A stretch of 58,786 nucleotides of DNA from a virus, in the IMG/VR virus record IMGVR_UViG_3300036846_001130, positions 1-58,786 of that record; one strand, given 5' to 3'. The position numbers were made by a program, and so were the translations under genes. The notes below the pieces were generated by a model that was not told the origin of the DNA, made no database searches, and worked only from the letters and a program-made list of their open reading frames with translations. Positions 1 through 46,226 of the stretch are shown here, piece after piece; within the stretch, counting starts at the first letter, position 1; each line of letters opens with the position of its first letter.

Positions 1-168
1 ACGCGGAACACGGCGGATTTTTCGGGAGCGCTTACCAGAGCGCTCCCGAAATCTTGTGCGGTGATCATCGCCCATCACTCGCATGATCCAGCGCCGCGCG
101 GTCTCGCGGCTCACGCCGTACTGCTCCGCGATCTCCTTCGGGCTGAGCCATCGTTCCAGCGGTGTCAT
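1..168 (-). CDS. Helix-turn-helix DNA-binding protein, partial (runs off left edge)
   Basis: Reading leftward from ATG at 166-168, 56 codons stay open to the window edge. The N-terminus (MTPLERWLSPKEIAEQYGVS, then RETARRWI) matches the excisionase/MerR-like winged HTH pattern (HTH_17): a polar helix, a turn at YGVS and a recognition helix with ARRW. The rest is very basic (RFRERSGKRSRK). The ATG overlaps the TGA of the gene at 165-656. It may be an excisionase-like regulator or a small DNA-binding packaging or recombination factor. The true length is unknown, and codons 40-50 lie in a perfect 13-bp hairpin. Confidence 0.6.
   Translation of the reverse strand, partial: MTPLERWLSPKEIAEQYGVSRETARRWIMRVMGDDHRTRFRERSGKRSRKIRRVPR
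20..51. repeat. 13-bp perfect inverted repeat with 6-nt loop
   Basis: Positions 20-32 pair with 39-51 (TTTCGGGAGCGCT / AGCGCTCCCGAAA) around the loop TACCAG. Neither strand has a downstream T-run, so it is not a standard intrinsic terminator. It lies inside the open minus-strand HTH frame. It could be a protein-binding site, an mRNA hairpin or a chance GC-rich repeat. Confidence 0.6.
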
Positions 169-4160: not shown

Positions 4161-4344
4161 CGCAGATTTCCTTTCGCAGTTGATGATCCGTGCGCAGCTC
4201 TGTCTGCGCGATTGTTCCTCCTCGAATCCACGCGATCAGGCGATGGTCGAGGTTCATGTGATCCGCCAGCTCTGCCCAGCTATCGAAGGTTTCACCGCAC
4301 GGCCCTACTGCTCTAGAGGACTGAATCGCGCAGATGAATTTCAT
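4039..4344 (-). CDS. Small C2H2-like zinc-finger protein with long overlapping tail
   Basis: 101 aa. Residues 1-38 carry a Cys-Cys...His-His-like finger (C5, C17, then HMNLDH) typical of phage mini-proteins. The remainder, from about residue 62, lies opposite the beginning of the DUF1064-like gene in another frame and looks like low-complexity overprinting. ATG 4342-4344 overlaps the XRE regulator's last codons. The tail may be real overlapping coding, or the downstream gene may start later. Confidence 0.45.
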   Translation of the reverse strand: MKFICAIQSSRAVGPCGETFDSWAELADHMNLDHRLIAWIRGGTIAQTELRTDHQLRKEICGDRNSRPRHHAAPRDESHRGKVLAAPAGPSDHRRNSVVGL

Positions 4345-4729
4345 TCGATGGCTCCGGTGGCGGCGACTGCAGCAATGGCTCCAAAAACTTGGCCAGCGGT
4401 TCATCGAACGCTTTGGCCAGTTGTTCCAGTTCCGTCAGTCGCGGGTTCTTTCTCAACTCCTCCAGCTGATACAAATTGCTGAAGGGCATCTTGGCGCGAT
4501 CCGCGAAGGCGCGCAGGGTGAGATTCTGCTCCCTGCGGCGCTGCGCCAGATAGCGCCCGAATCGTCCGAGCAGGTTCTCCACCTGCTCCTTACGTCGCCG
4601 TTGCTTCTTCCGCAGAACGTGCCCCACCCTTGTACGTCCGTTCTTTCGTAGCCTCATCCTCAACTCTGTGCCGCGTGATGTTCTTGCTTTGCGGTTCCTG
4701 CTCCTCTGCTTCCCCCGTGCGGACCCCAC
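4313..4729 (-). CDS. XRE-family helix-turn-helix regulator
   Basis: 138 aa. A strongly basic N-terminal extension precedes a classic HTH_3 domain at about residues 58-115: LGRYLAQRRREQNLTLRAFA, then DRAKMPFSNLYQLEELRKNP and LTELEQLAKAFDEPLAKFL. This is the lambda-repressor/434-Cro fold, with the turn-recognition segment KMPFSNLYQLE. GTG 4727-4729 lies 12 nt after AGGAG; ATG at 4657 is an alternative that would drop the extension. As the only obvious XRE regulator here it is a candidate to bind the repeated operator at 12.6-18.2 kb, but nothing in the sequence proves the pairing. It ends with a proline-rich tail. Confidence 0.8.
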   Translation of the reverse strand: MGSARGKQRSRNRKARTSRGTELRMRLRKNGRTRVGHVLRKKQRRRKEQVENLLGRFGRYLAQRRREQNLTLRAFADRAKMPFSNLYQLEELRKNPRLTELEQLAKAFDEPLAKFLEPLLQSPPPEPSNEIHLRDSVL

Positions 4730-10925: not shown

Positions 10926-11213
10926 TCAGGGCTTCATAGCTTGAGCCGGGTTCGTGTGGGCGAGGGCGAACTGGTAGCCGCAATTCAGGCCACAGAAGCG
11001 GTTGTTGCCGAACCTGCCATAGGTGCCTTTGAAAATCTTGTGCTCGCGCTCGAAGGCCCGGCGCTTTGCGCCGTCATAGTCCTCGCTGAACCACGGGCGC
11101 TCCACGTCGTAGCCGTAATTCGGGCGCAGCTCGCGGTTGCAGTGTAGGCAGCGCGGGCGCAGGCCGACAGCTCTCGGCTTGAGCTTCGTGGCCTTCGTGA
11201 CCTGTACGCTCAC
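10926..11213 (-). CDS. Zinc-finger-like protein
   Basis: 95 aa. It contains RCLHCNRELRP (CxxC) and RFCGLNCGYQFA (CxxxC), flanking an aromatic and charged region with AKRRAFEREHKIFKG. GTG 11211-11213 overlaps the previous stop (GTGA). The spacing suggests one zinc site bridging N- and C-terminal halves. It is the last gene of the operator-controlled leftward array and is followed by a terminator at 10843-10878. Confidence 0.65.
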   Translation of the reverse strand: MSVQVTKATKLKPRAVGLRPRCLHCNRELRPNYGYDVERPWFSEDYDGAKRRAFEREHKIFKGTYGRFGNNRFCGLNCGYQFALAHTNPAQAMKP

Positions 11214-11761
11214 AGCTGCACCGCTCCGCCCGTCTCGGCCATGATGATCGCGAGCTTCACCGCGTCGGCGATAGTCTCCTCGCCTTCGAGGAGCAGAGCG
11301 CCCGGCGAGAGTGGATGGATGTTCCCGCCCTCTTGCCAGAATTTGCTGATCGCTTTCAGGACGATGAGCATCTGCGGCCCGGCCTCTTTCGCGAGCCTCA
11401 CTTTGTATTCGGCGGCAGCCTGTGCGAGTCGCTCTTTCTCCTCCTGCGCAAGTTTTCGCTCGCACTTTTCGAACAGCCGCCCAGCTTCGGCTTGGGCCAT
11501 GGCATCCTCCACCATGGCCTTGTTCTTGGCGATCCTCGCATCGAGGTAGCGGACCTCGTTCCGATACCGTCCGGTTCTGGGGTGCTTGTCTGTCGGCGGA
11601 ACCGTTTTGTAAACGGCAGGGTAACCTCGCCCGCTCCCGATTGCGGGCGTTACTTCGAGGCTCGGGATGCGCAACCAGACGTGGTAGTGATCCTGCTTCC
11701 ACGACCACGATAGGCTGTACTGCTCGCCGCTGCGTCCTACGCTTACGTTGTGGACTGGCAT
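11210..11761 (-). CDS. Protein with central coiled coil, unknown
   Basis: 183 aa. An N-terminal beta-rich part (MPVHNVSVGRSGEQYSLSWS...) leads to a charged helix of about 60 residues (NKAMVEDAMAQAEAGRLFEK and KLAQEEKERLAQAAAEYKVR), then an alpha-helical end. It begins with the shared leader AAAGGAGCACAGACGA. Not recognised; it could be structural or a protein-protein adaptor. Confidence 0.65.
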   Translation of the reverse strand: MPVHNVSVGRSGEQYSLSWSWKQDHYHVWLRIPSLEVTPAIGSGRGYPAVYKTVPPTDKHPRTGRYRNEVRYLDARIAKNKAMVEDAMAQAEAGRLFEKCERKLAQEEKERLAQAAAEYKVRLAKEAGPQMLIVLKAISKFWQEGGNIHPLSPGALLLEGEETIADAVKLAIIMAETGGAVQL

Positions 11762-11814
11762 TCGTCTGTGCTCCTTTCGGAATTTTCTCGCTCTTTGGTG
11801 CCCGGCGAAAACTT

Positions 11815-12627
11815 TTACTCTGTCGCCGCTTGTTCTGGTTGTGCTACCGCCTCGGCTGCGGGTGGCACTAGAGCCTTCACGCTCTCCGGCAGTTTCTCGG
11901 CGTAGCCCACCCAGCTGCCCCCGCTCCAGCTGAAGCCTGCGGCCTTGAGTTCGTTCAGGATTTCACGCTCCGGTTTTTCGGCGAAGGTGACCTGCGCCCA
12001 GCTGTTGCCGTGGCCGCCCGTCTTGATGAGCACTCCGCCCGGCGCTGCCTCGGCGTCTGCCGTTCGCTTCTGCCGGGCCTTCACCGCTTCGAGGCGCTTG
12101 CGGTCTGCGGTGATCCTGCCGCCCAGATTGGAGAGTTCGTAAGGCAGGTGAGGCGCTTTGCCCCAGTAGCTGCCTGCTGCCGCTAGCTTCACCTTGAGCG
12201 CTTCGAGATCGAGGCCCAGAGCTTTGAGGCCTTCGGCATCGCCCTTTTTGTACAGCTTGTTGACCAGCTTCATGCGCTCGCGCTCAGCTTCGCGCTCCGC
12301 GATGCGTTTCTCCAGCTCCTCGACCGCGTCGGAGTCGTCGGAGAAAATCGAGTTATCCAGCGCCCGCTCGATCCCATCGGCTGCGCTGCGGTGATGGTCG
12401 GCCAGTTTGCCCAGCTCGACCGATTTGCCCATCTTATTCCACGCCCGGTCGCGGTAATTGCGGTCGCGTTTCTCGCTGTGGTGGCCGACGAGGATTGGTT
12501 GACCCATCGGGATGATCGACATCATGTCGTGGGATTGCTTCGATAGGCTGGTGGAGCGGTCCTCAGCTTTGTCCGCCCACTCCAGCCGCTTCTCCATTTT
12601 CCGTTCGAGTCGCTCACGTCTGGTCAT
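11815..12627 (-). CDS. DUF3560-like protein
   Basis: 270 aa. The block SIIPMGQPILVGHHSEKRDR near residues 37-56 followed by a charged coiled region is characteristic of DUF3560 proteins, which occur on phages and plasmids with unknown function. Long helices (about 85-190) carry heptad-like charge patterns. The C-terminal domain (KTGGHGNSWAQVTFAEKPER..ILNELKAAGFSWSGGSWVG) is a small alpha/beta unit often seen in this family. ATG 12625-12627 lies 31 nt from promoter 12658-12686 and uses the leader AAGGAGCACAGCGAA. Confidence 0.75.
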   Translation of the reverse strand: MTRRERLERKMEKRLEWADKAEDRSTSLSKQSHDMMSIIPMGQPILVGHHSEKRDRNYRDRAWNKMGKSVELGKLADHHRSAADGIERALDNSIFSDDSDAVEELEKRIAEREAERERMKLVNKLYKKGDAEGLKALGLDLEALKVKLAAAGSYWGKAPHLPYELSNLGGRITADRKRLEAVKARQKRTADAEAAPGGVLIKTGGHGNSWAQVTFAEKPEREILNELKAAGFSWSGGSWVGYAEKLPESVKALVPPAAEAVAQPEQAATE

Positions 12628-12657
12628 TTCGCTGTGCTCCTTGTTGACTACAGTTTA

Positions 12658-12686
12658 ATAATAGACTCGGTGCGCCTATTTGTCAA
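12658..12686 (-). promoter_or_regulatory. Operator-containing promoter 1 (for 11815-12627)
   Basis: TTGACA (12681-12686), 17-bp spacer AATAGGCGCACCGAGTC, TATTAT (12658-12663). The spacer plus -10 contains one good half-site of the repeated operator and a diverged second half (GAGTCTAT). It starts 31 nt before the DUF3560-like ATG. Confidence 0.85.
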
Positions 12687-13150
12687 GAGTTTTTGATTGG
12701 CTCCGAGGTCTGCCGGATGTGGCAGTTCCCGCGATACTGCCAGCCTTCGGCAGTTTTCTTGATGGTCGGGAAAGTGGGCCTCCCATTCACATGGCTGTAA
12801 GGTTCGCCGACTTGAATCAGCGCGCTCAGATGGGTGGCGGGTGGCAGAACACAGAGGAAATAGTCGGCCATGTCCTCATCGACTAGATCGCCGACCTGCA
12901 GGAACTCGTTCAGGTTCTGCCTGCTCTCGCCCCACTGCTTGCGAGTTTTGATGGTCTTCGGTTCGCCCGGTCGTTTGACGATCCAGCCAGACGCGCTGTA
13001 CTCGGTGCCGCATTCGCAGAAAACCCCGCCGCGCTCGGGCATGGAAACCTTTTTGCCGCAGATGCAGACGAGGTACATCGGTGCGGGAACTCCCACCGGA
13101 TACCCCTCCTCGCGAATCAGAGCCTTTTTCATGAATCCGCTGTAAGACAT
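12683..13150 (-). CDS. Zinc-ribbon-containing protein, unknown
   Basis: 155 aa. MYLVCICGKKVSMPERGGVF then CECG gives a C-x-C...C-x-C zinc knuckle (about residues 28-48). The rest has helical QWGESRQNLNEFLQVGDLVD and beta segments. It starts with the leader AAAGGAGCACAGCGAA at 13151 and lies downstream of 13172-13405 without a separate promoter, so the two form an operon. Its last codons overlap promoter 1. Confidence 0.65.
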   Translation of the reverse strand: MSYSGFMKKALIREEGYPVGVPAPMYLVCICGKKVSMPERGGVFCECGTEYSASGWIVKRPGEPKTIKTRKQWGESRQNLNEFLQVGDLVDEDMADYFLCVLPPATHLSALIQVGEPYSHVNGRPTFPTIKKTAEGWQYRGNCHIRQTSEPIKNS

Positions 13151-13171
13151 TTCGCTGTGCTCCTTTCAGGT

Positions 13172-13405
13172 TTAGAAAAGTTGTGCTTGCCCGGTCGCTG
13201 CCCGGTCGTGCTCCGGCTTAACCCAGTTTTTGTAGTACTCCGACCAGACCATACCTTCGGCCTTGTTTTTCGCGGTGCAGGCCTTGCAGTAATCGCCGCG
13301 CAACAGCCTGCCCATTTCCGGGTGGCACTTGGGGCAATGATCGCAGCGCCAGCAGCATCGCGGGCCGCGCCCCCCGCCGTGCATCCCACAAGTTACGAAT
13401 CCCAT
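13172..13405 (-). CDS. Cys-rich zinc-binding-like small protein
   Basis: 77 aa with CCWRCDHCPKCHPEMG and DYCKACTAKNKAEG, eight or more cysteines plus histidines, giving likely two zinc sites. The end contains WSEYYKNWVKPEHDR, a plausible interaction helix. ATG 13403-13405 follows GGGGCACAGCGA, a variant of the shared leader, 29 nt from promoter 2. Confidence 0.65.
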   Translation of the reverse strand: MGFVTCGMHGGGRGPRCCWRCDHCPKCHPEMGRLLRGDYCKACTAKNKAEGMVWSEYYKNWVKPEHDRAATGQAQLF

Positions 13406-13433
13406 TCGCTGTGCCCCTTTCCCTTACAGATAC

Positions 13434-13462
13434 AGAATAGACGCACCGCGTCCATTTGTCAA
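13434..13462 (-). promoter_or_regulatory. Operator-containing promoter 2 (for 13172-13405 and 12683-13150)
   Basis: TTGACA (13457-13462), 17-bp spacer AATGGACGCGGTGCGTC, TATTCT (13434-13439). The palindrome TGGACGCggTGCGTCTA is a variant of the repeated operator with both half-sites present. The -35 overlaps the stop codon of the upstream gene. Confidence 0.85.
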
Positions 13463-13671
13463 GAAGTTTCTTCTACAGCAGGCCTCCCGACTTGGCCGTC
13501 GCGCAGGGGCGAATTCGCCCACGCCCGGCAGGTGCGGCGGGCGCATCTCTGCGGCAGTTCCTTGCCTTCGCTAATCCAGACGTGCTTGCAGTCCTCGCAG
13601 TACAGGATGAGCACTTTGCGTGCCCGCAATGCCTTCTGCAGGTCGCTCCAGTTGGTGATTTCCCTCAGCAT
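13459..13671 (-). CDS. Zinc-ribbon-like small protein
   Basis: 70 aa. ILYCEDCKHVW and RCARRTCRAW provide a four-Cys ribbon (about residues 25-50). The N-terminal helix SDLQKALRARKV precedes it. ATG 13669-13671 overlaps the previous gene by 7 nt. Not recognised beyond the metal motif. Confidence 0.6.
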   Translation of the reverse strand: MLREITNWSDLQKALRARKVLILYCEDCKHVWISEGKELPQRCARRTCRAWANSPLRDGQVGRPAVEETS

Positions 13672-13928
13672 GTCTCCCCCTTCAGCCTGACCTGTGTCAG
13701 GTACAGTTCTCTGGTATTGCCGTGAACGTCGTGCACCGCCAGCTTGATGCCTTCCGCGCCGTCAACCCACGCCGCGTCGATGGTCGCCAGCATCTCGCCG
13801 CTGAGGTTGGGCCGCAATCCAACCCAGATGCGACCGTTTACATCGTCCTTGCTGGCAGTGCTGCCATACTCCGGTTTTGGCACAATCATCTTGCCCAGCA
13901 GTTGATTCGATAGCCCGCCTTTTGCCAT
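13665..13928 (-). CDS. Small beta-rich protein, unknown
   Basis: 87 aa (MAKGGLSNQLLGKMIVPKPE...). It contains NGRIWVGLRPNLSGEMLATI and beta segments near the end (IKLAVHDVHGNTRELYLTQVRL). It abuts the next gene at 13929. No family recognised. Confidence 0.6.
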   Translation of the reverse strand: MAKGGLSNQLLGKMIVPKPEYGSTASKDDVNGRIWVGLRPNLSGEMLATIDAAWVDGAEGIKLAVHDVHGNTRELYLTQVRLKGETC

Positions 13929-14114
13929 CTAACTCCTCCTCGGTGGAAAGTGTGTGACTCCGGTGCGCGGGTCGGTCCAAGCTTTGCCGTAGTGCATCGC
14001 ATCGGCCAACTGCCAGTCGAGGATCGCGTCCTCGCGCAACAGGCGGCCTGCAATCTCTTCCAGCTGGGCGAGCAATTCGGCCCGGCGCGCGTAATAGCTG
14101 CAGTCGTGAATCAC
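13929..14114 (-). CDS. Small helical protein, unknown
   Basis: 61 aa starting MIHDCSYYARRAELLAQLEE, a single amphipathic helix rich in Leu/Glu/Arg, then LDWQLADAMHYGKAWTDP. GTG 14112-14114 overlaps the stop of the tiny membrane gene upstream (GTGA). Confidence 0.55.
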   Translation of the reverse strand: MIHDCSYYARRAELLAQLEEIAGRLLREDAILDWQLADAMHYGKAWTDPRTGVTHFPPRRS

Positions 14115-14227
14115 GCTGCCAGCCTGCGATACTTGATCATGGCTGACAGGGCGAAAGTGCTGAGCACGATACCCGCGTAAAACAGCATTGTGGCCATCTG
14201 TTCGAGATTCAGAGTGTTATCGGTCAT
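14111..14227 (-). CDS. 38-aa membrane microprotein
   Basis: ATG 14225-14227 follows a perfect copy of the shared leader (AAGGAGCACAGCGA), which supports translation. The protein has MTDNTLNLEQMATMLF, then a hydrophobic stretch YAGIVLSTFALSAMI and a basic end KYRRLAA, so it is a single-pass membrane peptide. It is in the operon behind promoter 3. Confidence 0.6.
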   Translation of the reverse strand: MTDNTLNLEQMATMLFYAGIVLSTFALSAMIKYRRLAA

Positions 14228-14255
14228 TCGCTGTGCTCCTTGTACTCAGAATTTA

Positions 14256-14498
14256 TCAACTCAATTCGGACATCAGCTCTAAGCCATAGTTCTCGGCGGT
14301 GATTTTGAAGTGGAAAACCAGATCATTCCAGTTGCCTTCGGCGAACCGGACATAGCCGTCGTGATCGATGTAGTTCCAGCCGGACACGATGCGCGACTTG
14401 TGCCCGAGTATCACGTTCACCGCGCGCGGCACGCGCTCGATTTTCCAGCGGTACTCGCGGCCTTCGGAATCCTTGAGGCGGATGGCCAAGTTTTTCAT
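14256..14498 (-). CDS. Small protein of unknown function
   Basis: 80 aa (MKNLAIRLKDSEGREYRWKI...). ATG 14496-14498 with GGGGGAAACA is preferred: an in-frame TTG at 14516 would overlap the -10 box of promoter 3. It is rich in aromatic residues (WNYIDHDGYVRF, NWNDLVFHFK), suggesting a compact beta fold. Confidence 0.65.
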   Translation of the reverse strand: MKNLAIRLKDSEGREYRWKIERVPRAVNVILGHKSRIVSGWNYIDHDGYVRFAEGNWNDLVFHFKITAENYGLELMSELS

Positions 14499-14515
14499 TT
14501 GTTTCCCCCAATTCA

Positions 14516-14544
14516 AGAATAGACATAGCGCGTCTATTTGTCAA
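14516..14544 (-). promoter_or_regulatory. Operator-containing promoter 3 (for 14256-14498 to 13459)
   Basis: TTGACA (14539-14544), 17-bp spacer AATAGACGCGCTATGTC, TATTCT (14516-14521). The first half-site is close to consensus; the second is diverged (ATGTCTAT). It overlaps the 3' end of gene 14534-14806, so it is an internal promoter of a dense array. Confidence 0.85.
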
Positions 14545-14806
14545 CAGGTTTTCGCGGTCGGGGGCCTCGACCGAAGTGCACCGCCACTGTATTGGAGAGG
14601 TCTGCAATGCCGGGCGTGCCATGTGCACCGCCCATGTTCAGGACCCAGCCCCCGTGCGCGCTGCGCATCACCGCGCGCCCGGTCGCTTGCTTCCACTCCT
14701 GCCCCTCGCGCCCGATGCCTGCGGGCACAAGGATGGTCACCTTGTCCCCGTGGCGGATGCGAGCAAACTCGGCGTCGGTCACGGTCACCACTTTCGAGTT
14801 TTCCAT
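14534..14806 (-). CDS. Small protein of unknown function
   Basis: 90 aa. It starts MENSKVVTVTDAEFARIRHG and contains KVTILVPAGIGREGQEWKQA, a beta-strand/turn pattern, then GGWVLNMGGAHGTPG. ATG 14804-14806 is preceded by GCGAGGCATAAC. It belongs to the operon from promoter 4. Confidence 0.6.
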   Translation of the reverse strand: MENSKVVTVTDAEFARIRHGDKVTILVPAGIGREGQEWKQATGRAVMRSAHGGWVLNMGGAHGTPGIADLSNTVAVHFGRGPRPRKPVDK

Positions 14807-14807
14807 G

Positions 14808-15038
14808 TTATGCCTCGCTTTCGTAGTCTTCCGGATGCGGCACTCGCGGCCCGGTGTAAGCCGGGTTCGCGTACCACACATCACGGTCGCTCAGAATCCA
14901 AGCCTGCTCTGGATGCTCAGCCCCCTTGCGACTGGCAAACTCGCGATCCTCATCCGCGATGCTCATGGGAAAGCTCTGCTCCTCGCGTACCAAATCGAAA
15001 TATTCCTCTTCCGTCAGGGGCAAATCGCGCCAGCTCAT
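14808..15038 (-). CDS. Acidic small protein, unknown
   Basis: 76 aa, very acidic (MSWRDLPLTEEEYFDLVREE..., ending HPEDYESEA). Acidic small phage proteins sometimes mimic DNA or inhibit host enzymes, but nothing specific is visible. ATG 15036-15038 overlaps the TGA of the preceding gene by 4 nt. Confidence 0.6.
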   Translation of the reverse strand: MSWRDLPLTEEEYFDLVREEQSFPMSIADEDREFASRKGAEHPEQAWILSDRDVWYANPAYTGPRVPHPEDYESEA

Positions 15039-15283
15039 ACTTTCCTCGCTTTCGGTCGCTTGCCGTGTAACTCGGGATAGTGCACGGTGGTGGTGTAATC
15101 CGGGCGGTGATCAGTGGGCGGATATTTCCCGATAGCTAAGGTGTCCCAGTACGCTGGGGAGTGGCTCTTGCCATTGTCCGAGCAGTAGTCACAGGCGCAG
15201 CCGCCCGGAATTTCCCGCCACAATTCCCGTGGCAGCGGGACGAAAATCGTATCCTTTACGCGCTTGATCGGGGTGCTTAACAT
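15035..15283 (-). CDS. Conserved phage small protein with Cys cluster
   Basis: 82 aa. It contains IFVPLPRELWREIPGGCACD then YCSDNG (C-x-C-x-x-C), and AYWDTLAIGKYPPTDHRPDY, a phrase typical of phage proteins of unknown function. The leader AGAGGAGCACAGCAA precedes ATG 15281-15283, 29 nt from promoter 4. Confidence 0.65.
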   Translation of the reverse strand: MLSTPIKRVKDTIFVPLPRELWREIPGGCACDYCSDNGKSHSPAYWDTLAIGKYPPTDHRPDYTTTVHYPELHGKRPKARKV

Positions 15284-15311
15284 TTGCTGTGCTCCTCTCG
15301 ACTACAATTCC

Positions 15312-15340
15312 AGTATAGGTACGATGCGCCTATTTGTCAA
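15312..15340 (-). promoter_or_regulatory. Operator-containing promoter 4 (for 15035-15283 and downstream)
   Basis: TTGACA (15335-15340), 17-bp spacer AATAGGCGCATCGTACC, TATACT (15312-15317). The first half-site is perfect; the second half is GTACCTAT rather than GCGCCTAT. The -35 lies inside the last codons of gene 15337-15597. Confidence 0.85.
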
Positions 15341-15597
15341 GCGAAAATATACTCGATGCAAGAGTGCACCATGTAGTAGCAAGGCCGTCCCTTGTAGGTG
15401 CTGCGGTAGTAGCTCACAGCCCAATCCCGAGAGAGAACTAGGCCGCCGCGCTGGTATCCCATCTGGCTGGCAAGTTCCCGCCAATCGCAGTGCCGGGCGA
15501 AAGTGCCGAAAGTGATCTCGCGGGCCGTGTCGGTCATGGCGTTGATGGCCTCAGCGGTCGAGTTCACACAGCAGGTGAGATATTGGAACTTGGGCAT
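15337..15597 (-). CDS. Small protein of unknown function
   Basis: 86 aa (MPKFQYLTCCVNSTAEAINA...), helical at the N-terminus, with DWRELASQMGYQ and an aromatic end (SYYRSTYKGRPCYYMVHSCI). Four cysteines are present but not in a ribbon pattern. ATG 15595-15597 lies directly after the stop of the upstream gene. Confidence 0.6.
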   Translation of the reverse strand: MPKFQYLTCCVNSTAEAINAMTDTAREITFGTFARHCDWRELASQMGYQRGGLVLSRDWAVSYYRSTYKGRPCYYMVHSCIEYIFA

Positions 15598-15598
15598 T

Positions 15599-16084
15599 TT
15601 ACTTCGCCTCCAGTCGTTTCATCTTGTTGGCGCAGCGCAGGCAGGCAGGAACTTCGCCCAGCACTGGGTGCGGCATCTTGGTGGTGGCTTCGTGAGTGCA
15701 CATCGCGAAGACTTGGCAGGCCGGGCGCGGAATGTACTTGATCCCCGCATCCTGCGCCTCGATTTTGCGGCACAGCTGATCGACCTCGGTGCCTGCGCCA
15801 ATCCACTCTTCGAGGTTGATGGTGTAATCCGCGAGCACATCGAAGCCGTCATTGCCGTAAACGAATTGCGCATAGCCCGCGCGCTTGCCGTCGCGGTACG
15901 TGATCAGAACGTCTTCGTCGGTCGCCTGCAGCCCCTTGTAGAGCTTGCGCTCGTCCGAGGTGCGCTCTACTTCCATCTCATCGCCGCCGTTATTGATGGC
16001 CAATTCAAAGCCTGCCCGCAGTAGCGAATCCACCGTCAGCCGGGCGATTCGTTTCTCTGCGTTGATTCGTTTTTTAAGTTCCAT
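15599..16084 (-). CDS. Zinc-ribbon-tailed protein, unknown
   Basis: 161 aa from ATG 16082-16084. Longer readings would start inside promoter 5. The N-terminal half has a helix ELKKRINAEKRIARLTVDSL and INNGGDEMEVERTSDER. The middle carries beta segments ITYRDGKRAGYAQFVYGNDG. The C-terminus has CQVFAMCTHEAT...PACLRCANKMKRLE, two CxxxxC/CxxC pairs. It is the first leftward gene from the divergent control region. Confidence 0.65.
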   Translation of the reverse strand: MELKKRINAEKRIARLTVDSLLRAGFELAINNGGDEMEVERTSDERKLYKGLQATDEDVLITYRDGKRAGYAQFVYGNDGFDVLADYTINLEEWIGAGTEVDQLCRKIEAQDAGIKYIPRPACQVFAMCTHEATTKMPHPVLGEVPACLRCANKMKRLEAK

Positions 16085-16101
16085 TGTTTTCACCCAAGAA
16101 C

Positions 16102-16130
16102 AGAATAGGCGCATTGCGTCCATCTGTCAA
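16102..16130 (-). promoter_or_regulatory. Operator-containing promoter 5 (leftward arm of divergent control region)
   Basis: TTGACA (16125-16130), 17-bp spacer GATGGACGCAATGCGCC, TATTCT (16102-16107). The palindrome TGGACGCAATGCGCCTA matches the operator with one half-site perfect. It is back to back with promoter 6 with 24 bp between the two -35 boxes, so one protein cluster could control both arms. Confidence 0.9.
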
Positions 16131-16154
16131 GCCCTAAAATTAAATTCTTTTCTC

Positions 16155-16183
16155 TTGACAAATAGGCGCATTGGCCCTATTCT
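16155..16183 (+). promoter_or_regulatory. Operator-containing promoter 6 (rightward arm of divergent control region)
   Basis: TTGACA (16155-16160), 17-bp spacer AATAGGCGCATTGGCCC, TATTCT (16178-16183). It reads into the zinc-ribbon gene 16208-16375, 25 nt downstream. The interval between promoters 5 and 6 (16131-16154) is A/T-rich and gene-free. Confidence 0.9.
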
Positions 16184-16207
16184 CAGAGTGTAGCAAGGAG
16201 GAAACAA

Positions 16208-16375
16208 ATGGCCAAGATGGCTCTCAAGTGCAACGAATGCGGCAAGGCCTTCCGGGTCTCCGACTCCAATCCTGATCCGCAATGCCCGCGCTGCAATAGT
16301 GTGGATTTCGAAGTCGAGGGCGTGATTCGGTTCTATCGGCCCGCCAAGCCTGTCAGCCCTGCGGAGGTGCGGTAA
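16208..16375 (+). CDS. 55-aa zinc-ribbon protein
   Basis: Reads MAKMALKCNECGKAFRVSDS then QCPRCNSVDFEVEGV: two CxxC pairs 16 residues apart, a classical rubredoxin/FmdB-type zinc ribbon. ATG 16208 follows AAGGAGGAAACAA. It is the first gene of the rightward array, controlled by promoter 6. Its TAA overlaps the next ATG (TAATG). Confidence 0.75.
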   Translation: MAKMALKCNECGKAFRVSDSNPDPQCPRCNSVDFEVEGVIRFYRPAKPVSPAEVR

Positions 16376-16485
16376 TGATCGCGTTCGCAAACTTCATCGA
16401 AATGATTCTCGACTTTTTCAGCAGTGCAGTGCCCGTGCCGATAGAGCGCCGGGTGGTGTACCGAAATTACGCGGAGGTGATGTGA
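16375..16485 (+). CDS. 36-aa microprotein
   Basis: Starts MIAFANFIEMILDFFSSAVP and continues with VPIERRVVYRNYAEVM. A hydrophobic amphipathic N-terminal helix is followed by a charged tail. It shares TAATG with the upstream stop and TGATG with the next start, so it is a coupled mini-gene. A GGAGGTG sequence near its end serves as SD for the next gene. Function unknown. Confidence 0.5.
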   Translation: MIAFANFIEMILDFFSSAVPVPIERRVVYRNYAEVM

Positions 16486-16793
16486 TGGCGGCAGCAACCT
16501 ACGGCACCATGACGTTCAGCGAATATCAGGAATTCTCCCGCAACCTGCGGGAGCGGGCAGAGCGGCTCTCGCAGCGCATACGCGAGCAGGCGCGGGACCT
16601 CGGCGAGCGGGAACTGGGCAGCGGGCGCGATATGGCCTTTCTCGCGGCCCACAACTGGCAGGGGCAGCGCTGGATGTCTCCCTTGCAGAACCGGGCAGCG
16701 CGTTTGATCCTCTGGCTGCAAGAGCAGAGTTTCCTCCCCAGCCGCATGGCCGACCGCATCCTCAACCGCGCATGGCGCAAAGTTTCCGCTTGA
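16485..16793 (+). CDS. Arg-rich helical protein, unknown
   Basis: 102 aa. Long helices rich in Arg/Glu (NLRERAERLSQRIREQARDL) precede MAFLAAHNWQGQRWMSPLQN and a basic end. It may bind nucleic acid. ATG 16485-16487 is in the TGATG overlap; the GTG 3 nt earlier is less likely. The TTGACA of promoter 7 overlaps its last codons. Confidence 0.65.
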   Translation: MAAATYGTMTFSEYQEFSRNLRERAERLSQRIREQARDLGERELGSGRDMAFLAAHNWQGQRWMSPLQNRAARLILWLQEQSFLPSRMADRILNRAWRKVSA

Positions 16794-16819
16794 CACAATA
16801 GGCGCATTGCGCCTATACT
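16790..16819 (+). promoter_or_regulatory. Operator-containing promoter 7, with the perfect operator
   Basis: TTGACA (16790-16795), 18-bp spacer and TATACT (16814-16819). The operator ATAGGCGCATTGCGCCTAT at 16798-16816 is a perfect 19-bp palindrome (9+1+9). It drives 16837-17151, 18 nt downstream. Confidence 0.9.
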
Positions 16820-16836
16820 GTAATCGAGGTGAAAAG

Positions 16837-17151
16837 ATGAAATGCATCCTTTGCAAAGCGCCCGCGCTACCGGGTCTGATCTATTGCGCACCGCACTATG
16901 AACACGCCTCACGTCTCACCCTCGCCGAGAAACTGGCTGAGCAACGCGCAGCTGGTTGGATCGCCGACATCCCTCTGCCGGGCTTTGAACGGGTCGAGGG
17001 CGAACGGGCTGCGGTGATGGCCACCGAGCAGGGCGAGCAGCTGAGCGCCGAACTGCTCAAGCCGAAGGCCAGCATCGAAGCGAAAGCAGGCGCAATCGAA
17101 ACGCTGTCACCACTATTCCGGGGCCATGGCCCACAGGGGGAACTGTTCTGA
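16837..17151 (+). CDS. Zinc-finger-tagged small protein
   Basis: 104 aa from ATG 16837, with GAGGTGAAAAG upstream; an earlier in-frame start would lie inside promoter 7. The N-terminus MKCILCKAPALPGLIYCAPH has CxxC...CxxH-type metal ligands. The rest is a helical segment (LTLAEKLAEQRAAGW) and an acidic region ending SPLFRGHGPQGELF. Function unknown. Confidence 0.65.
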   Translation: MKCILCKAPALPGLIYCAPHYEHASRLTLAEKLAEQRAAGWIADIPLPGFERVEGERAAVMATEQGEQLSAELLKPKASIEAKAGAIETLSPLFRGHGPQGELF

Positions 17152-17327
17152 TGAAACGCGAAGACTTTGATTTAATCGCCCGCTCACTCTCCGACTCCTT
17201 ACGCGCAGCCATCAACCCGACCGAGCGCAAGACTGTGAAGGCCGTGGCCTTTACCCTCGCCGCCAACCTGAGCGAGTCGCCTGCCTTCGATCCCGACAGA
17301 TTCCTGCGGCTCGCGGGGGCACGCTGA
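17151..17327 (+). CDS. 58-aa conserved phage-type small protein
   Basis: Reads MKREDFDLIARSLSDSLRAA, then TVKAVAFTLAANLSESPAFD and PDRFLRLAGAR. The FDxDRFLxxxG ending is a signature seen in small phage proteins of unknown role. TGATG overlaps at both ends tie it to its neighbours. Confidence 0.65.
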   Translation: MKREDFDLIARSLSDSLRAAINPTERKTVKAVAFTLAANLSESPAFDPDRFLRLAGAR

Positions 17328-17554
17328 TGAAAATCACGGCGCAAGTTTTGAATGGGGCCACGGGCGAGGTCAGAGAAGTAATCGCCAACATCGCCGCAGC
17401 CAGCGAGCAGGAAGCCGTTGACAAACTGTTCGCCCGCGCTCGCCGCGACGATTACTACTACCGCTTTCTCGGGAGCAGCGGTGTGATCCCTCCGACTGAT
17501 CCCACTGCAGCCTCAGTGCTCCACGAAACTATGACGTACTGGGCGCGCGAATAG
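17327..17554 (+). CDS. Small protein of unknown function
   Basis: 75 aa. The N-terminal beta-alpha pattern is ITAQVLNGATGEVREVIANI, then ASEQEAVDKLFARARRDDYY, ending HETMTYWARE. It is the last gene of the promoter-7 unit. No family recognised. Confidence 0.6.
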   Translation: MKITAQVLNGATGEVREVIANIAAASEQEAVDKLFARARRDDYYYRFLGSSGVIPPTDPTAASVLHETMTYWARE

Positions 17555-17569
17555 GTTACCAAAGACTTC

Positions 17570-17599
17570 TTGACTCTATAGGCGCATCGCGTCTATTCT
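17570..17599 (+). promoter_or_regulatory. Operator-containing promoter 8 (for 17627-18178)
   Basis: TTGACT (17570-17575), 18-bp spacer containing ATAGGCGCATCGCGTC, TATTCT (17594-17599). Both half-sites are near consensus (one mismatch in the second). The -35 differs from the others at its last base. Start codon 28 nt downstream. Confidence 0.85.
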
Positions 17600-17626
17600 C
17601 AAGATGGACAAAGGAGCACAGCGAAA

Positions 17627-18178
17627 ATGCCAATCATCCACATGAGAAGTAAAGCGGAAGACATCCCAGCCGATGCGGTGAACGTGCGCAAGCTGGAAGA
17701 GTACAGCGGGCAGAAGATGGACCTGTGGCTGTACGATTCGCACGTCGGCCTGTGCGTGAAGGAATACGAGCGCAACGGCTACAACGATTCCGACTTTTAC
17801 ATGGTCGTCTGGAACGAGGAACTGGGCAAGCCCGAGTCCATCGAGTTCGCCTCCACGCGCGGCTGGTCCTACCCTTGCATGGGTTCGCGAGTCGATGCCA
17901 GCCCGGAAGTGCTCGCCAAGTACAGCGCATGGGAAGCCGAAGAAGCCCGCAAGTATCGCGAGGCCCGGATGGCGGAGGAGGCAGCCCGCCCGGCGCGGGG
18001 CAAGATGCTCAAGGTAGTCAAGGGGCGCAAGGTGCCGAAGGGCACCACGGGCGAATGCATCTGGATTGGTGACGGGCGCTGGGGCAAGCGCGTAGGCATC
18101 AAGGATGCGGCAGGAACGGCCCACTGGACCGCCATCGCCAACGTCGAAGTAGTGACGGGAACGGAGGTGACCAGCTAA
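17627..18178 (+). CDS. Protein of unknown function with KOW-like tail
   Basis: 183 aa. The N-terminal part has AVNVRKLEEYSGQKMDLWLY and VWNEELGKPESIEF. A charged helix (KYSAWEAEEARKYREARMAE) links to a C-terminal beta unit (GKMLKVVKGRKVPKGTTGEC, then GVKDAAGTAHW-like GIKDAAGTAHWTAIANVEVV), which resembles a KOW/SH3-like strand pattern. ATG 17627 follows the shared leader AAAGGAGCACAGCGAAA. Confidence 0.65.
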   Translation: MPIIHMRSKAEDIPADAVNVRKLEEYSGQKMDLWLYDSHVGLCVKEYERNGYNDSDFYMVVWNEELGKPESIEFASTRGWSYPCMGSRVDASPEVLAKYSAWEAEEARKYREARMAEEAARPARGKMLKVVKGRKVPKGTTGECIWIGDGRWGKRVGIKDAAGTAHWTAIANVEVVTGTEVTS

Positions 18179-18187
18179 GTTTTCCCC

Positions 18188-18216
18188 TTGACACACAGGC
18201 GCATTGCGTCTATTAT
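18188..18216 (+). promoter_or_regulatory. Operator-containing promoter 9 (for 18241-18900 and 18897-19370)
   Basis: TTGACA (18188-18193), 17-bp spacer CACAGGCGCATTGCGTC, TATTAT (18211-18216). Operator core AGGCGCATTGCGTCTAT has one mismatch per half. The start codon lies 25 nt beyond the -10. Confidence 0.85.
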
Positions 18217-18240
18217 TGAGTTGTGAGAGGAGCACAGCGA

Positions 18241-18900
18241 ATGAAACGAATCGAGTCGAATGGCAAGGGCAGTTACATTCTGGGCCGGGTGGCCCTGCGC
18301 AGCACCAAATCCTTCACCCAGCATTACGAGTGCGCGGCATGGCATAAGACGGTCGAGTGCCCGCCGCAGGTTGTGGAGTTACGCTTCACGCTGCACGGCG
18401 ATGGAGGCTATCCCAGCTTCTATGCGACCTTTGCGGGCAAGGTGACCAGTTCGAATTTCGTACCGCTGTTTGGCGGGGTGCGCTGCGGCTCGGGCGGGAT
18501 CGACGAAGAGGTCGGCAAGGATGCGACGCACACGGTGTGCTTCGAGGCGCAGCATCATCTCGCCGGGTCGGTGCTGAACCGCTCCGACTTCACCTACAGC
18601 TTTGATCTCGATCTCGATCTGGTGTCGATTGAATGGACGGTATGGAAGTCGGCAGGCTACCTGCCCGACGACATCCTGTACCGCGAGGGCGAGCCGTGGC
18701 ACAATCTGGCGACGACCAACCTGAAGGCCATGATCACGCCGCACGATCCCAAGCTCATCGAGGCCTTGCGCTATAGCGCGGAGGCCACGCTGCGCGATCA
18801 TCCTGAGGCCATTCCGGGCGAGTTCACGCGCTACTGGGAACACCGCCGCGATTACATGGCGGCGCTGCTGACCCGGCTCCCGAAGGAGGACGCGAAGTGA
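18241..18900 (+). CDS. Protein of unknown function
   Basis: 219 aa from ATG 18241 after GAGAGGAGCACAGCGA. An in-frame GTG at 18223 would fall at the predicted transcription start. The first half is beta-rich (VVELRFTLHGDGGYPSFYATFAG type pattern), with a repeated Asp/Leu strand (SFDLDLDLVSIEWTVW). The C-terminal part is helical (LIEALRYSAEATLRDHPEAI). No family recognised. It is coupled to 18897-19370 by a 4-nt overlap. Confidence 0.65.
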   Translation: MKRIESNGKGSYILGRVALRSTKSFTQHYECAAWHKTVECPPQVVELRFTLHGDGGYPSFYATFAGKVTSSNFVPLFGGVRCGSGGIDEEVGKDATHTVCFEAQHHLAGSVLNRSDFTYSFDLDLDLVSIEWTVWKSAGYLPDDILYREGEPWHNLATTNLKAMITPHDPKLIEALRYSAEATLRDHPEAIPGEFTRYWEHRRDYMAALLTRLPKEDAK

Positions 18901-19370
18901 CCAAAGCGGAGCGCGAGCTGAAGCGGTATCTCGAATTGCTGCGCGACTGCGGGCTGTGCCTGCCGCATGGCATTGCGCTCGATGCCGATGCGGCTCGCCG
19001 CGCGGTGCTGCCGGGCTGGCACTACAAGGGGCCTGCCGACCTGTTGCTGCGCGAGGGCCAGTTCTACCCTCCGCCTGCGACCGTGCACCCGTGGAAGCAT
19101 GCCCTGCCGCAGGCCTGCTTTCGCAATGCGGCGCTGTACGCCATCGAGCACGGCATGCGCTACGTCGAAGGTTATGCGGGCGTGATCATCCCGGTGCATC
19201 ACGGCTGGTGTGTGGACGCGCATGGCCGGGTGATCGAGGTGACTTGGAAGGAACCCGGCTACGTGTACTTTGGGGTCGAGTTTCCCCCGTGCAAGGTGAT
19301 GAAGGGGGCAGTGCTGTTCAATCCCCGGCAGGGCACGAAGCTCTACCGCAAGCCCCTCGCCGCGCGTTAG
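18897..19370 (+). CDS. Conserved phage protein with possible papain-like triad
   Basis: 157 aa. QACFRNAALYAIEHGMRYVE has Cys74 at the start of a helix, followed by YAGVIIPVHHGWCVD (His101/102) and GRVIEVTWKEPG (Glu114). This Cys-His-acid order and strand pattern resemble NlpC/transglutaminase-like folds. The block MRYVEGYA...VHHGWCVDxxGRVIEVTW recurs in phage hypothetical proteins. GTG 18897 overlaps the previous stop. It could be a peptidase, an acyltransferase or a non-catalytic relative. Confidence 0.55.
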   Translation: MTKAERELKRYLELLRDCGLCLPHGIALDADAARRAVLPGWHYKGPADLLLREGQFYPPPATVHPWKHALPQACFRNAALYAIEHGMRYVEGYAGVIIPVHHGWCVDAHGRVIEVTWKEPGYVYFGVEFPPCKVMKGAVLFNPRQGTKLYRKPLAAR

Positions 19371-19382
19371 AAGCCTGCCTGC

Positions 19383-20663: not shown

Positions 20664-20963
20664 ATTGTGTCCAGTGCCGCGCGTTTTGGCCATAAGTCCT
20701 TTCGATACGCTAGTGTCGGGGGTTCGCTCCGAACCCTTCGCAGCCGCGCATGGCAGGCGCATCGCGTCTAATCCTCGATTTTCGCTGAGGGGTCCGACCC
20801 TCCGCCATTACCCGACCCACCCGTCACCCCCAACGCCGGGCGGCGGCCTGTTTAAATTTAACCTCCTCCACTCTCCACCGTATACGAAAAATCGTATGCA
20901 AGTTGTTGCAAAACTGAGGGTTGGGAGTCTCAAAATTTTAAAAAATTCTGGAGAAAAAATGCT
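20664..20963. other. 300-bp gap: hairpins, degenerate operator, AT-rich leader
   Basis: No convincing gene; an open frame from 20656 lacks recognisable features and runs into the next gene. The gap holds a 7-bp hairpin GGGTTCG/CGAACCC (20720-20736), an operator-like AGGCGCATCGCGTCT (20755-20769), a GAGGG/CCCTC hairpin near 20790, an ATACGA-AAAA-TCGTAT inverted repeat (20882-20897) and A/T-rich stretches at 20851-20860 and 20932-20960. It probably controls the genes at 20964 and 21443. Confidence 0.5.
20755..20769 (+). promoter_or_regulatory. Degenerate copy of the repeated operator
   Basis: AGGCGCATCGCGTCT is identical to the core of promoter 8's operator, but the flanks lack ATAT-type ends. 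No TTGACA lies at the expected spacing (GCGCAT instead). It may be a stand-alone repressor site upstream of the RHH-like/DnaB genes. Confidence 0.4.
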
Positions 20964-21446
20964 ATGGAGACGATGCGGATCAATTTGCCGGGCGAGCTGA
21001 AGCAGTGGCTGAAGGCGGAGGCAAAGCGTCGAGGGTTGAGCATGCGGGCGTTCGCGGTGGGGCTACTTTGGGGGTCATTTGAGGGGTCATTCAAGAGTCC
21101 GATTAAGAGTCCGGATCGGGCCTCTGGGACAAAACAGGGACAAAAGCGGGACTCCGAGGGCTGGGTCGCGGAGGATCATCCGGGCCGGGCTGAGTTTGTG
21201 GCGAAGGCGAGGGAGCACCACCGGGCGAAGGGGTACAGGTTCAGTCTGGAGGGTTGGCTGGGTCACTACGACTCGAACGGGGGGCGGGTGGGAAAGAATC
21301 CGATGAAAAGCTGGAAGGGATCGATGGTGACGTTTGAGAAGAACCGGGTGGAGATGGAGCCGGAGTCAGGGAAGGCGGTCACGCCGCCCAACCCGGCAGA
21401 GATTCGGCGGGCGCAGGAAGCCCGCGCGCGAGGAGAAGGCGTATGA
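20964..21446 (+). CDS. RHH-like N-terminus joined to replisome-organiser-type C-terminal segment
   Basis: 160 aa. Residues 1-35 (MRINLPGELKQWLKAEAKRR, GLSMRAFAVGLLW) have the strand-helix-helix pattern of Arc/CopG ribbon-helix-helix proteins. Residues about 70-125 contain RAEFVAKAREHHRAKGYRFS, WLGHYDSNGGRVGKNPMKSW and KGSMVTFEKN, the NPMKxWKxxxxTFxKN motif found at the C-terminus of phage replication-initiation and DnaT-like proteins. ATG 20964 follows GGAGAAAAA. It probably assists helicase loading; its stop overlaps the DnaB start. Confidence 0.65.
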   Translation: METMRINLPGELKQWLKAEAKRRGLSMRAFAVGLLWGSFEGSFKSPIKSPDRASGTKQGQKRDSEGWVAEDHPGRAEFVAKAREHHRAKGYRFSLEGWLGHYDSNGGRVGKNPMKSWKGSMVTFEKNRVEMEPESGKAVTPPNPAEIRRAQEARARGEGV

Positions 21447-25389: not shown

Positions 25390-25657
25390 AGTCGAGCGCC
25401 TGCTGAAAACCCTCTGCGAGCAGAAGTGCGCGATCTTCCTCGAACGCGGCAAGGAAACCTATCGGCTCACAGGCTACGACAAGGACACTGATCAGCTGAT
25501 CGTCGAGCGCCCCCGCCGCGCCGGGCGCAAACCCAAAAATTTGCCTCCAGCCGTCGACCGCATGACGGTGAAAGAGGCGGAGCGCGCCTATTGCCGGGTG
25601 GATGCCGCCAGCGCGAAGGTGACCGCCGTGGCTCCGGTCGCGGGCGGATCGAGGTGA
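25310..25657 (+). CDS. Small protein of unknown function
   Basis: 115 aa (MEVELLHIHHGDKKKKIDTS...). A beta-alpha pattern with FLERGKETYRLTGYDKDTDQ and a basic, Pro-rich middle (RPRRAGRKPKNLPPAVDRMT). SD upstream is weak because the start lies in the preceding gene. Confidence 0.55.
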   Translation: MEVELLHIHHGDKKKKIDTSVAAGKNEVERLLKTLCEQKCAIFLERGKETYRLTGYDKDTDQLIVERPRRAGRKPKNLPPAVDRMTVKEAERAYCRVDAASAKVTAVAPVAGGSR

Positions 25658-44699: not shown

Positions 44700-45917
44700 A
44701 TGGGCGTTTATACCCCAATTCGACACCTGTACAAGCCAGCGGACGGAGAGACAGGCTGGGGCGGTCTGGTCGATGCGAACTGGGATGATCTCGATACCGT
44801 TGCGGATAAATCCTACGTCGATACGCAGGACACTTCCACGCTGGCGAGCGCAAAAGCTTACACCGACGCAGAGATCGCGGCGCTGCCGCCTGCAGGGGTC
44901 ACCTCTGTCTTCACGCGCACGGGCGCTGTGGTGGCGGCGGCCATGGACTATGGGGCGGTCGACAACTTGGAGCTGGGCGACAACTCTGGCAGCTCAATCC
45001 TGTTCGACTCTGGCCTTAACGCCGTCGAAGTTCAGGCCGGAGGTGGTACCGGGCCAGTTACTGTTGCGGCTTCGCTGGTCGACCTGTCGACGTCGGTGAC
45101 CGAAGTCGATGTCCCGACGCCTGCGACAGCGGACAACTCAATCAAGGCCGCTTCCACTGCTTTCGTGAAAGCGCAGGGCTATCAGGCGACCGCACAGAAG
45201 GACGTCGCGAACGGCTACGCGGGCCTCGATGCGGGCGGAAAGCTGAAGACCGCTGAGGCTCCGACGTGGAACCAGAGCACGACTGGAAGCGCGGCCAGCC
45301 TGAGCGCGGCCTCTGCGCTGCCGAACGGGACGACGGGGACCACGCAGGCAGCGGGCGACAACAGCACGAAGCTGGCTACGACCGCCTACGCAGATGCGGA
45401 AGTTGCCACGTTCACCGGAACAAGCAACGCGGTGTTTTACGGGTTTACGGTGTACCGCCCTGCTACCCCAGATACGATTGCAACAGGCCCAGAGTGCGCT
45501 CCCAACGTCGTCTACTGCTTCCCTTTCATTCTGCCGTTCAAGTTCACCGTCAGGTCCATAGTCACGAAGATGGCCGCTGCGCTAGTAGGCACTTACGACG
45601 CAGGCCTGTTTGACGCATCCGGTAACAACGTGGTGAGTCTTGGGGGGCTGAGCACCAACACGACCGCGCCCACCACGACCACGGTTGCTGCCGCCACTTT
45701 GCCCCCCGGCCTCTACTACCTGTGCTTGTGTGCTTCGGTGGCCAACGTCAATTTTTTCGGCATCTCCAACGGAATCAGCGGCACGTTGAATTTCTCGACG
45801 TACTACACCGCCGCGAACCCCGCAATCAGCGGGGTTCTCCCCAGCACGCTAGGCGCGCTCACGGCGCAGAACAATACGAGCGTGTACCCACTTTTGGCGG
45901 TGTTCAGGAATAGCTGA
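44700..45917 (+). CDS. Tail fibre/receptor-binding protein
   Basis: 405 aa. N-terminal HLYKPADGETGWGGLVDANW, then trimeric fibre-like segments (SYVDTQDTSTLASAKAYTDA, TKLATTAYADAEVA). The C-terminal (about 250-405) has a beta sandwich (FYGFTVYRPATPDTIATGPE). Typical of a short tail fibre that recognises the host surface. Contiguous with 44286-44699. Confidence 0.75.
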   Translation: MGVYTPIRHLYKPADGETGWGGLVDANWDDLDTVADKSYVDTQDTSTLASAKAYTDAEIAALPPAGVTSVFTRTGAVVAAAMDYGAVDNLELGDNSGSSILFDSGLNAVEVQAGGGTGPVTVAASLVDLSTSVTEVDVPTPATADNSIKAASTAFVKAQGYQATAQKDVANGYAGLDAGGKLKTAEAPTWNQSTTGSAASLSAASALPNGTTGTTQAAGDNSTKLATTAYADAEVATFTGTSNAVFYGFTVYRPATPDTIATGPECAPNVVYCFPFILPFKFTVRSIVTKMAAALVGTYDAGLFDASGNNVVSLGGLSTNTTAPTTTTVAAATLPPGLYYLCLCASVANVNFFGISNGISGTLNFSTYYTAANPAISGVLPSTLGALTAQNNTSVYPLLAVFRNS

Positions 45918-45927
45918 GGGAATTTTT

Positions 45928-46218
45928 ATGGGACTAGCGACAGGTTCTCTAAAGCTCAGTTTTATCGACACCGGAACTTTTATTGTCATGCCCCCCACGG
46001 CGGATGTGCTGGGAACGCTGACCGCGCCCAGCGCGATCTCAACTGCAGCGAGCAAGGTCTATGCGGTGCCCTACGTCAACACGCCGACAGTGATTCTCAT
46101 CCCCACCACGAACTGCGGGGGCTTCTACCTGTCGGCATCGACCAACACGGGTTTCACCGTCACCTTCACCACTGCGGGGACGCACAAGTTCTCCTATCTG
46201 GTGATCAGTAACGACTGA
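45928..46218 (+). CDS. Small virion/fibre accessory protein
   Basis: 96 aa, beta-rich (LATGSLKLSFIDTGTFIVMP, VPYVNTPTVILIPTTNCGGF, FTVTFTTAGTHKFSYLVISN). Pattern similar to C-terminal fibre tips or chaperones. Located between two virion genes. Confidence 0.55.
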   Translation: MGLATGSLKLSFIDTGTFIVMPPTADVLGTLTAPSAISTAASKVYAVPYVNTPTVILIPTTNCGGFYLSASTNTGFTVTFTTAGTHKFSYLVISND

Positions 46219-46226
46219 AGGGAAAT

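Follow-up and report, generated by a model that had tools for sequence, protein, structure and literature searches.

The genome analysed here, that of a virus which probably infects soil bacteria (IMG/VR record IMGVR_UViG_3300036846_001130, the whole of which, 58,786 bp and classed as linear, is referred to below as the window), carries nine promoters between positions 12658 and 18216. Four of them are on the plus strand and five on the minus strand, and each holds one copy of a shared palindromic operator between its -35 and -10 boxes. We consider it probable that the nine operators serve one phage-encoded, dimeric helix-turn-helix (HTH) repressor, that they are of the class bound by the anti-CRISPR-associated (Aca) proteins Aca1 and Aca10, and that the operons behind them would be expressed in an early burst and then shut off.

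The promoters, all of which were found again as originally predicted, consist of a TTGACA -35 box (TTGACT in one of the nine), a spacer of 17 bp (seven promoters) or 18 bp (those at 16790 and 17570), and a -10 box reading TATTCT, TATACT or TATTAT. The gap from the -10 box to the ATG is 17-30 nt, a spacing as tight as had been described, the earlier figure of 18-31 nt having been counted inclusively. The operator is a 21-bp odd palindrome with the consensus AATAGRCGCA-N-TGCGYCTATT that begins right past the -35 box and finishes within the -10 box, the TAT of which forms the end of the right half-site. On the minus strand, promoter 1 (12658-12686, TTGACA-N17-TATTAT; operator AATAGGCGCACCGAGTCTATT at 12660-12680) precedes g21 (DUF3560, 11815-12627), g20 and g19; promoter 2 (13434-13462; AATGGACGCGGTGCGTCTATT, 13436-13456) precedes a gene at 13172-13405 and g22 (12683-13150); promoter 3 (14516-14544; AATAGACGCGCTATGTCTATT, 14518-14538) precedes g28 to g24 (14498 down to 13459); promoter 4 (15312-15340; AATAGGCGCATCGTACCTATA, 15314-15334) precedes a gene at 15035-15283, g30 and g29; and promoter 5 (16102-16130; GATGGACGCAATGCGCCTATT, 16104-16124) precedes a gene at 15599-16084 and g31. 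Back to back with the last of these, and forming with it the innermost pair (16102-16183), is promoter 6 on the plus strand (16155-16183; AATAGGCGCATTGGCCCTATT, 16161-16181), which is followed by g33 (zinc-ribbon-like), g34 and g35. The remaining plus-strand promoters are promoter 7 (16790-16819; AATAGGCGCATTGCGCCTATA, 16797-16817, a perfect 19-bp palindrome), ahead of a gene at 16837-17151, g37 and g38; promoter 8 (17570-17599; TATAGGCGCATCGCGTCTATT, 17577-17597), ahead of g39 (17627-18178); and promoter 9 (18188-18216; CACAGGCGCATTGCGTCTATT, 18194-18214), ahead of g40 (18241-18900) and g41 (18897-19370). The sites do share a consensus, but to call them near-identical goes too far, since up to about five of 19 positions depart from it and a single site matches perfectly.

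A strict promoter rule (TTGACA with at most one mismatch, a 16-18 bp spacer and TA[TA]nnT), applied to the entire window, returns nine promoters in 58.8 kb, exactly the nine that bear operators; in 40 shuffles that preserve trinucleotides the average is 1.5 and no shuffle exceeds 4. Under a looser rule, with spacers of 16-19 bp, the count is 11, nine of them with the operator. Searching with the 19-mer at up to three mismatches yields 11 strand-hits, equivalent to six of the nine sites (five matched on both strands), where 0.02 would be expected, and an operator matrix recovers all nine, with leave-one-out scores of 21.8-31.8 against a shuffle maximum of 15.5. The palindrome that had been proposed for the spacer and -10 box goes beyond what a promoter needs: among the inner pairs, outside the ends constrained by the -10 box, 38 of 54 are complementary, compared with 17.4 +/- 3.3 after shuffling, and 0 of 20,000 shuffles reached 38. 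Nine of the ten operator matches sit in promoters; the tenth (25572-25592, no strand assigned), inside g49 and away from any promoter, scores 19.2 against the shuffle maximum of 15.5 and may be a chance match, while a match at 20752, upstream of g43, drops to chance level (12.0) under a symmetric matrix and was set aside.

All bacterial Aca families have an inverted repeat within the core promoter, and each represses (PMC9410906); the window operator is, from its sequence, best read as belonging to the verified operator class of Aca1 and Aca10. In the anti-CRISPR (acr)-aca loci of Pseudomonas phage DMS3/JBD30 (Aca1) and of Aca10, as in the window, a strong sigma70-like promoter carries an inverted repeat in its spacer that extends into the -10 box, and the Aca1 operator half-site TAGGCACA compares with TAGGCGCA here. 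Applied to the DMS3 acr promoter, the window matrix matches exactly its two inverted repeats, with scores of 18.1 and 17.9 that 0.02% of random palindromes reach and with the next best match at -10.9; in the same register, the DMS3 promoter and the window consensus agree at 22 of the 29 positions that span the -35 box, spacer and -10 box. The Aca10 operator (IR2), AATACGCTCATTGAGCGTATT, agrees with the window operator at 17 of 21 positions, both being built as 10+1+10, and lies, as AATACGCTCA-T-TGAGCGTATT, in a TTGCAA-N16-TATTCT promoter (PMC9410881).

A strict promoter-operator pattern gave no match over viral contigs, and a relaxed one, run over all IMG/VR viral contigs, matched four contigs that represent two independent phages (L212 and L213), in both of which the operon behind the promoter-operator encodes an Aca1-family protein. 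The L213 operon, behind the promoter TTGACA-CAATAGGCGCGCAGCGCC-TATTGT, begins with a 44-aa open reading frame (ORF) and continues with a 71-aa PHROG 3865 protein that is Aca1 (E 1.5e-19 to structures 7vjn/7c0g/7fa3; 56% to DMS3 gp31); behind the L212 promoter, TTGACG-AATAGGCGCAATGCGCC-TATAGT, come a 79-aa ORF and a protein with a weaker match to Aca1 (E 2e-6). Neither phage has recognisable genes in common with the window, apart from one weak match (E 0.001) to g31. The two segments (L212:1564-2192 and L213:11995-12418) constitute acr-aca-like operons in unrelated uncultivated phages, and the one small ORF that precedes the Aca1-family gene in each, as in acr-aca operons (79 aa, MSTQYEVEKFG..., and 44 aa, MIPDTDQGGG..., respectively), is a candidate anti-CRISPR.

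These data are consistent with the following course of events. At DNA entry the repressor would be absent and the nine strong promoters would fire together, yielding a burst of 24 small early proteins, probably with anti-defence or establishment functions; as the repressor accumulated it would occupy the nine spacers, exclude RNA polymerase and turn the regulon off, and such binding would also hold the regulon silent in a lysogen. In Aca systems, strong constitutive early promoters fire on entry and are then turned off by a repressor from the same operon; a ninefold set of promoters of this kind would impose the burst-then-off behaviour on the whole gene set. The operator class points to Aca repressors and to a burst of expression on entry, either in place of a lysogeny switch or in addition to one. 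That a bound repressor would block RNA polymerase remains the best reading for many early units; the original prediction extended it to every early unit, which is too strong, because the replication operon (g42 to dnaB) has a promoter-like sequence at 19382 that lacks the site.

Several findings weigh against this reading. No Aca1 homologue encoded in the window was detected by tblastn, and the tested genes behind the nine promoters include no recognisable HTH protein and none that matches a known anti-CRISPR (Acr). Among 13 structural relatives none carries the window operator, and the closest relatives by structural genes lack it. The Aca10 likeness, taken alone, is not strong: because the -10 box forces TAT, an equal score is reached by 4.6% of random palindromes whose ends are AATA/TATT. 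Acr-aca loci also have one promoter and one operon each, in contrast to nine here, and hold aca within the operon, whereas the window has neither an Aca1 homologue nor a recognised acr. While its promoter may well work like an acr-aca promoter, we do not class the system among acr-aca operons, since a search for an aca gene in the operon found none.

Candidates for the repressor are the XRE protein g8 and a gene off the contig, for example an Aca-like gene in the missing part. The leading candidate in the window is g8 (4313-4582, minus strand; 89 aa, XRE/HTH_3, HTH_3 E 7.5e-9), the only clear HTH protein found there, which would gain a basic N-terminus if it started at the in-frame GTG that lies about 45 bp upstream. 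Its AlphaFold2 (AF2) model has a five-helix XRE fold (pLDDT 82), for which Foldseek returns as nearest the restriction controller proteins C.BclI and C.Esp1396I, and also ClgR and DdrO; an NCBIfam resemblance to TrbA is weak. Orthologues of g8 are confined to G006 and G010, the pair of relatives whose spacers hold shared or palindromic elements (see below), and show altered residues in the putative recognition helix; 15 other records, many of them partial, lack one. There is no operator upstream of g8 and the gene is not in an operator-headed operon, where the gene of an autoregulated repressor should sit. As for a gene off the contig, the window is 59 kb long compared with 66-69 kb in relatives; several kb, with the integrase region among them, are probably missing from the ends of the record (window 1-165 and 58348-58786), and another repressor gene may lie hidden there. 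A second and weaker candidate regulator, g43 (20964-21446, plus strand), with an N-terminal ribbon-helix-helix (RHH)-like part (FitA-like RHH E 0.003, below cut-off; AF2 beta-alpha-alpha N-terminus, pLDDT 48), was rejected as the repressor for its low-confidence fold, its location in the replication operon and a lack of support. Upstream of g43, at 20882-20897, lies an inverted repeat, ATACGA-AAAA-TCGTAT, which is possibly its own operator.

The alternative that survives best, which we regard as unlikely, is that the sites are operators of a conventional CI-type lysogeny repressor that holds nine lytic early promoters off in the prophage. The phage group is probably temperate, since tyrosine integrases are present in four relatives (G003 and G012 over the Pfam cut-off; G006, at 45269-46702, and G010, at 45347-46921, weaker and full-length), with none in the window, and the modelled XRE fold of g8 would suit such a repressor. 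That one repressor may act on many dispersed operators is well documented, from the 22 C1 sites of P1 (PMC8546580) and the ten promoter peaks of SPbeta MrpR (PMC10516654) to cluster A phages (PMC6550527) and IncP plasmids (PMC4889941, PMC11790492). The operator class, however, fits acr-aca loci rather than a lysogeny switch, the window showed no divergent switch region of the cI/cro kind, and the promoter of the replication operon has no site. CI-type control and a burst ended by an Aca-like repressor are not exclusive. We think it improbable that the sites are instead controlled by a host regulator (host LexA, for example) or the repressor of a resident prophage or plasmid: there is no clear cognate gene in the window and Aca-like repressors can be bacterial (PMC9410881), but a host regulator should have targets in the chromosome. 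The host is probably in the Acidobacteriota, because the only cellular-genome match to the structural gene g76 is an Acidobacteriota metagenome-assembled genome, and the operator pattern occurs in 0 of 396 Acidobacteriota genomes, a search of low sensitivity in that the exact pattern fits two of the nine window sites. A MerR-type activator, or a phage-specified sigma factor or polymerase, recognising the conserved spacer is very improbable, for although conservation spans -35 to -10 and the -35 boxes of a parallel promoter set in G014 are weaker, the 17-18 bp spacers are at the sigma70 optimum and not at the 19-20 bp that MerR promoters need, both boxes are near consensus, and the symmetric palindrome matches proven repressor operators.

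Absence of the motif from related genomes had been named beforehand as a result that would speak against the proposal, and for the structural relatives reached through g76 (16, then 46 loci) it is literally what was found; it does not refute a repressor with nine operators, because some relatives by early genes show the same architecture with other operator sequences. A 20.4 matrix match in G021 is isolated and outside any promoter, and megablast of the window and two parallel phages against named phages gave no match. Among the structural relatives, four plus-strand early promoters of G006 share a different, weakly palindromic spacer element, TAGACAGGnTCACCCTC, which is tentative in that the automatic clustering could not tell it apart from shuffled sequence, and one promoter of G010 has a perfect AACCsAACGTTsGGTT palindrome in its spacer; G003, G008, G011, G012 and G015-G028 show no convincing multi-promoter clusters. 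Through DUF3560 we reached G014 (104 kb), in which 13 promoters with weaker -35 boxes share TTTACATCAATCnGATTCGTGCTATTCT; at its loci L048-L053 these appear as thirteen minus-strand promoters with TTTACATCAATCnGATTcGTGCTATTCTATAtcTG, between 152 and 20717 and at 97626-99717. This phage carries homologues of g21 (62%), g39 (57%), g41 and g16, and its g39 homologue lies directly behind one of the promoters, so that the same gene is found with another element embedded in its promoter. Three more cases came from surveying about 60 loci with DUF3560: G032, with ten promoters bearing ACAAAC-N8-GTTTGT and an HTH gene (L169 8915-9319) directly behind the promoter at 8856; G033, with 11 promoters bearing GACC..GGG; and G031, with four promoters bearing TTATRATCAAGCTTGATTATAA and an HTH-like gene directly behind one of them. 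The ten promoters of G032 (L198-L203, 1051 to 99536) are near-identical, TTGACAAACACACCATAGTTTGTTATACTTAAAGAGTGGTCAGG, with a conserved downstream leader, and the eleven of G033 (L204-L209, 441 to 114327; 115 kb, 65% GC) read TTGACA-CTGACCC..GGGG-TAGGTT. The parallels kept from the survey were L163, L169 and, after reading of the whole contig, L188/G033; most clusters in AT-rich loci were discarded as promoter-like noise, shuffles giving clusters of up to five. The architecture thus recurs with different operators, the majority of surveyed DUF3560 loci being without it, in a sample of early-gene relatives that is biased by the use of DUF3560 as bait. A broader reading, plausible though somewhat less likely than not, is that whole early anti-defence regulons have arisen repeatedly in tailed phages, each time through the spread of one operator-in-spacer promoter to 4-13 operons controlled by a single Aca-like repressor. 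The operator sequence would be exchanged, giving an immunity-like specificity, and the homologous early genes would be kept; the window would then represent a case with an Aca1-type operator and a repressor other than Aca1.

The region from 10.9 to 19.4 kb is, as had been described, made up of small operons behind the sites: nine operons of one to five genes fill it with 24 small genes, fifteen in five operons on the minus strand (10926-16084, promoters 1-5) and nine in four operons on the plus strand (16208-19370, promoters 6-9), as gene calls whose start codons were checked. Recognisable domains among the tested early genes are limited to g21 (DUF3560, E 7e-36) and g33, no known Acr family was matched, and naming by PHROG and NCBIfam gave nothing informative; Acrs are usually unrecognisable from sequence. 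Relatives of the DUF3560 gene occur in many phages as well as on 319 plasmids, of which 177 are conjugative, a distribution that suggests a function in entry or establishment. DUF3560-bearing plasmids were dropped as parallels, neither of the two tested having a comparable promoter cluster; one such plasmid, pPL2, has a TrfB/KorA-related gene nearby. Many early genes have in common an extended ribosome-binding site, AAGGAGCACAGCGAAATG, that exceeds Shine-Dalgarno needs (12625-12642, 13148-13165, 13402-13419, 14224-14241, 15281-15299, 17610-17626 and 18225-18243), and G010 has a similar one, AGGAGCACGGCAATG. The early region is followed by the replication operon, with the replication initiator g42, the RHH-like g43 and DnaB (g44).

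Operators between the -35 and -10 boxes are classical, as in lambda OR1/OL1 and P22 Mnt/Arc. The P22 Mnt operator, ATAGGTCCACGGTGGACCTAT, begins ATAGG and sits between the two boxes, but Mnt and Arc are RHH proteins acting at one locus, and the resemblance was dropped as evidence, the shared ATA/TAT being largely forced by the -10 box. The original prediction was right to contrast the sites with stoperators, yet placement in the spacer is not in itself new, being common to all bacterial Aca families (PMC9410906). Cluster A mycobacteriophages such as L5 (PMC6550527) likewise have one repressor, many sites and an operator that varies among relatives with immunity specificity, but their stoperators are asymmetric, lie mostly outside promoters and act on elongation, whereas the window sites are palindromic. 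The IncP KorA regulon (PMC4889941, PMC11790492) combines a dimeric HTH protein with seven palindromic operators beside or overlapping the core promoter; it differs in being a plasmid system in which KorA cooperates with KorB, in its operator, GTTTAGCTAAAC, and in the only weak resemblance of g8 to TrbA. Multi-operon entry regulons are known from pLS20-family plasmids (PMC8708921) and archaeal viruses (PMC11065993). In the former (p576 Reg), several operons under one repressor are expressed transiently on entry until the repressor builds up, but Reg is an RHH protein whose direct-repeat operators lie upstream of the -35 box or past the start, outside the spacer (PMC8708921). In the latter, whose early anti-defence regulons are exemplified by Aca8 of SIRV2, many small, mostly unknown early genes share a regulatory sequence at a strong promoter, and this sequence varies between viruses; there, single genes stand behind archaeal TATA/BRE promoters, as against the bacterial -35/-10 boxes, mostly multi-gene operons and Aca1-like palindrome of the window (PMC11065993). 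The open-licence literature yielded no precedent for a tailed phage in which nine promoters each carry a copy of an Aca-type operator, which is weak evidence of absence; for a tailed phage the arrangement appears to be new.

Given how near the site comes to the one by which phages turn off their anti-CRISPR genes, the 24 small genes make good candidates for a coordinated burst of counter-defence as infection begins. A single repressor and nine operators that change specificity would raise the testable evolutionary question of how they do so jointly. If the reading proposed here is true, the promoter-operator would mark these 24 small unknown genes, along with dozens from the parallel phages, as a single programme of genes co-regulated on entry. 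It would then also allow the anti-defence genes of bacterial phages to be found from sequence alone, in the way recently achieved for archaeal viruses.

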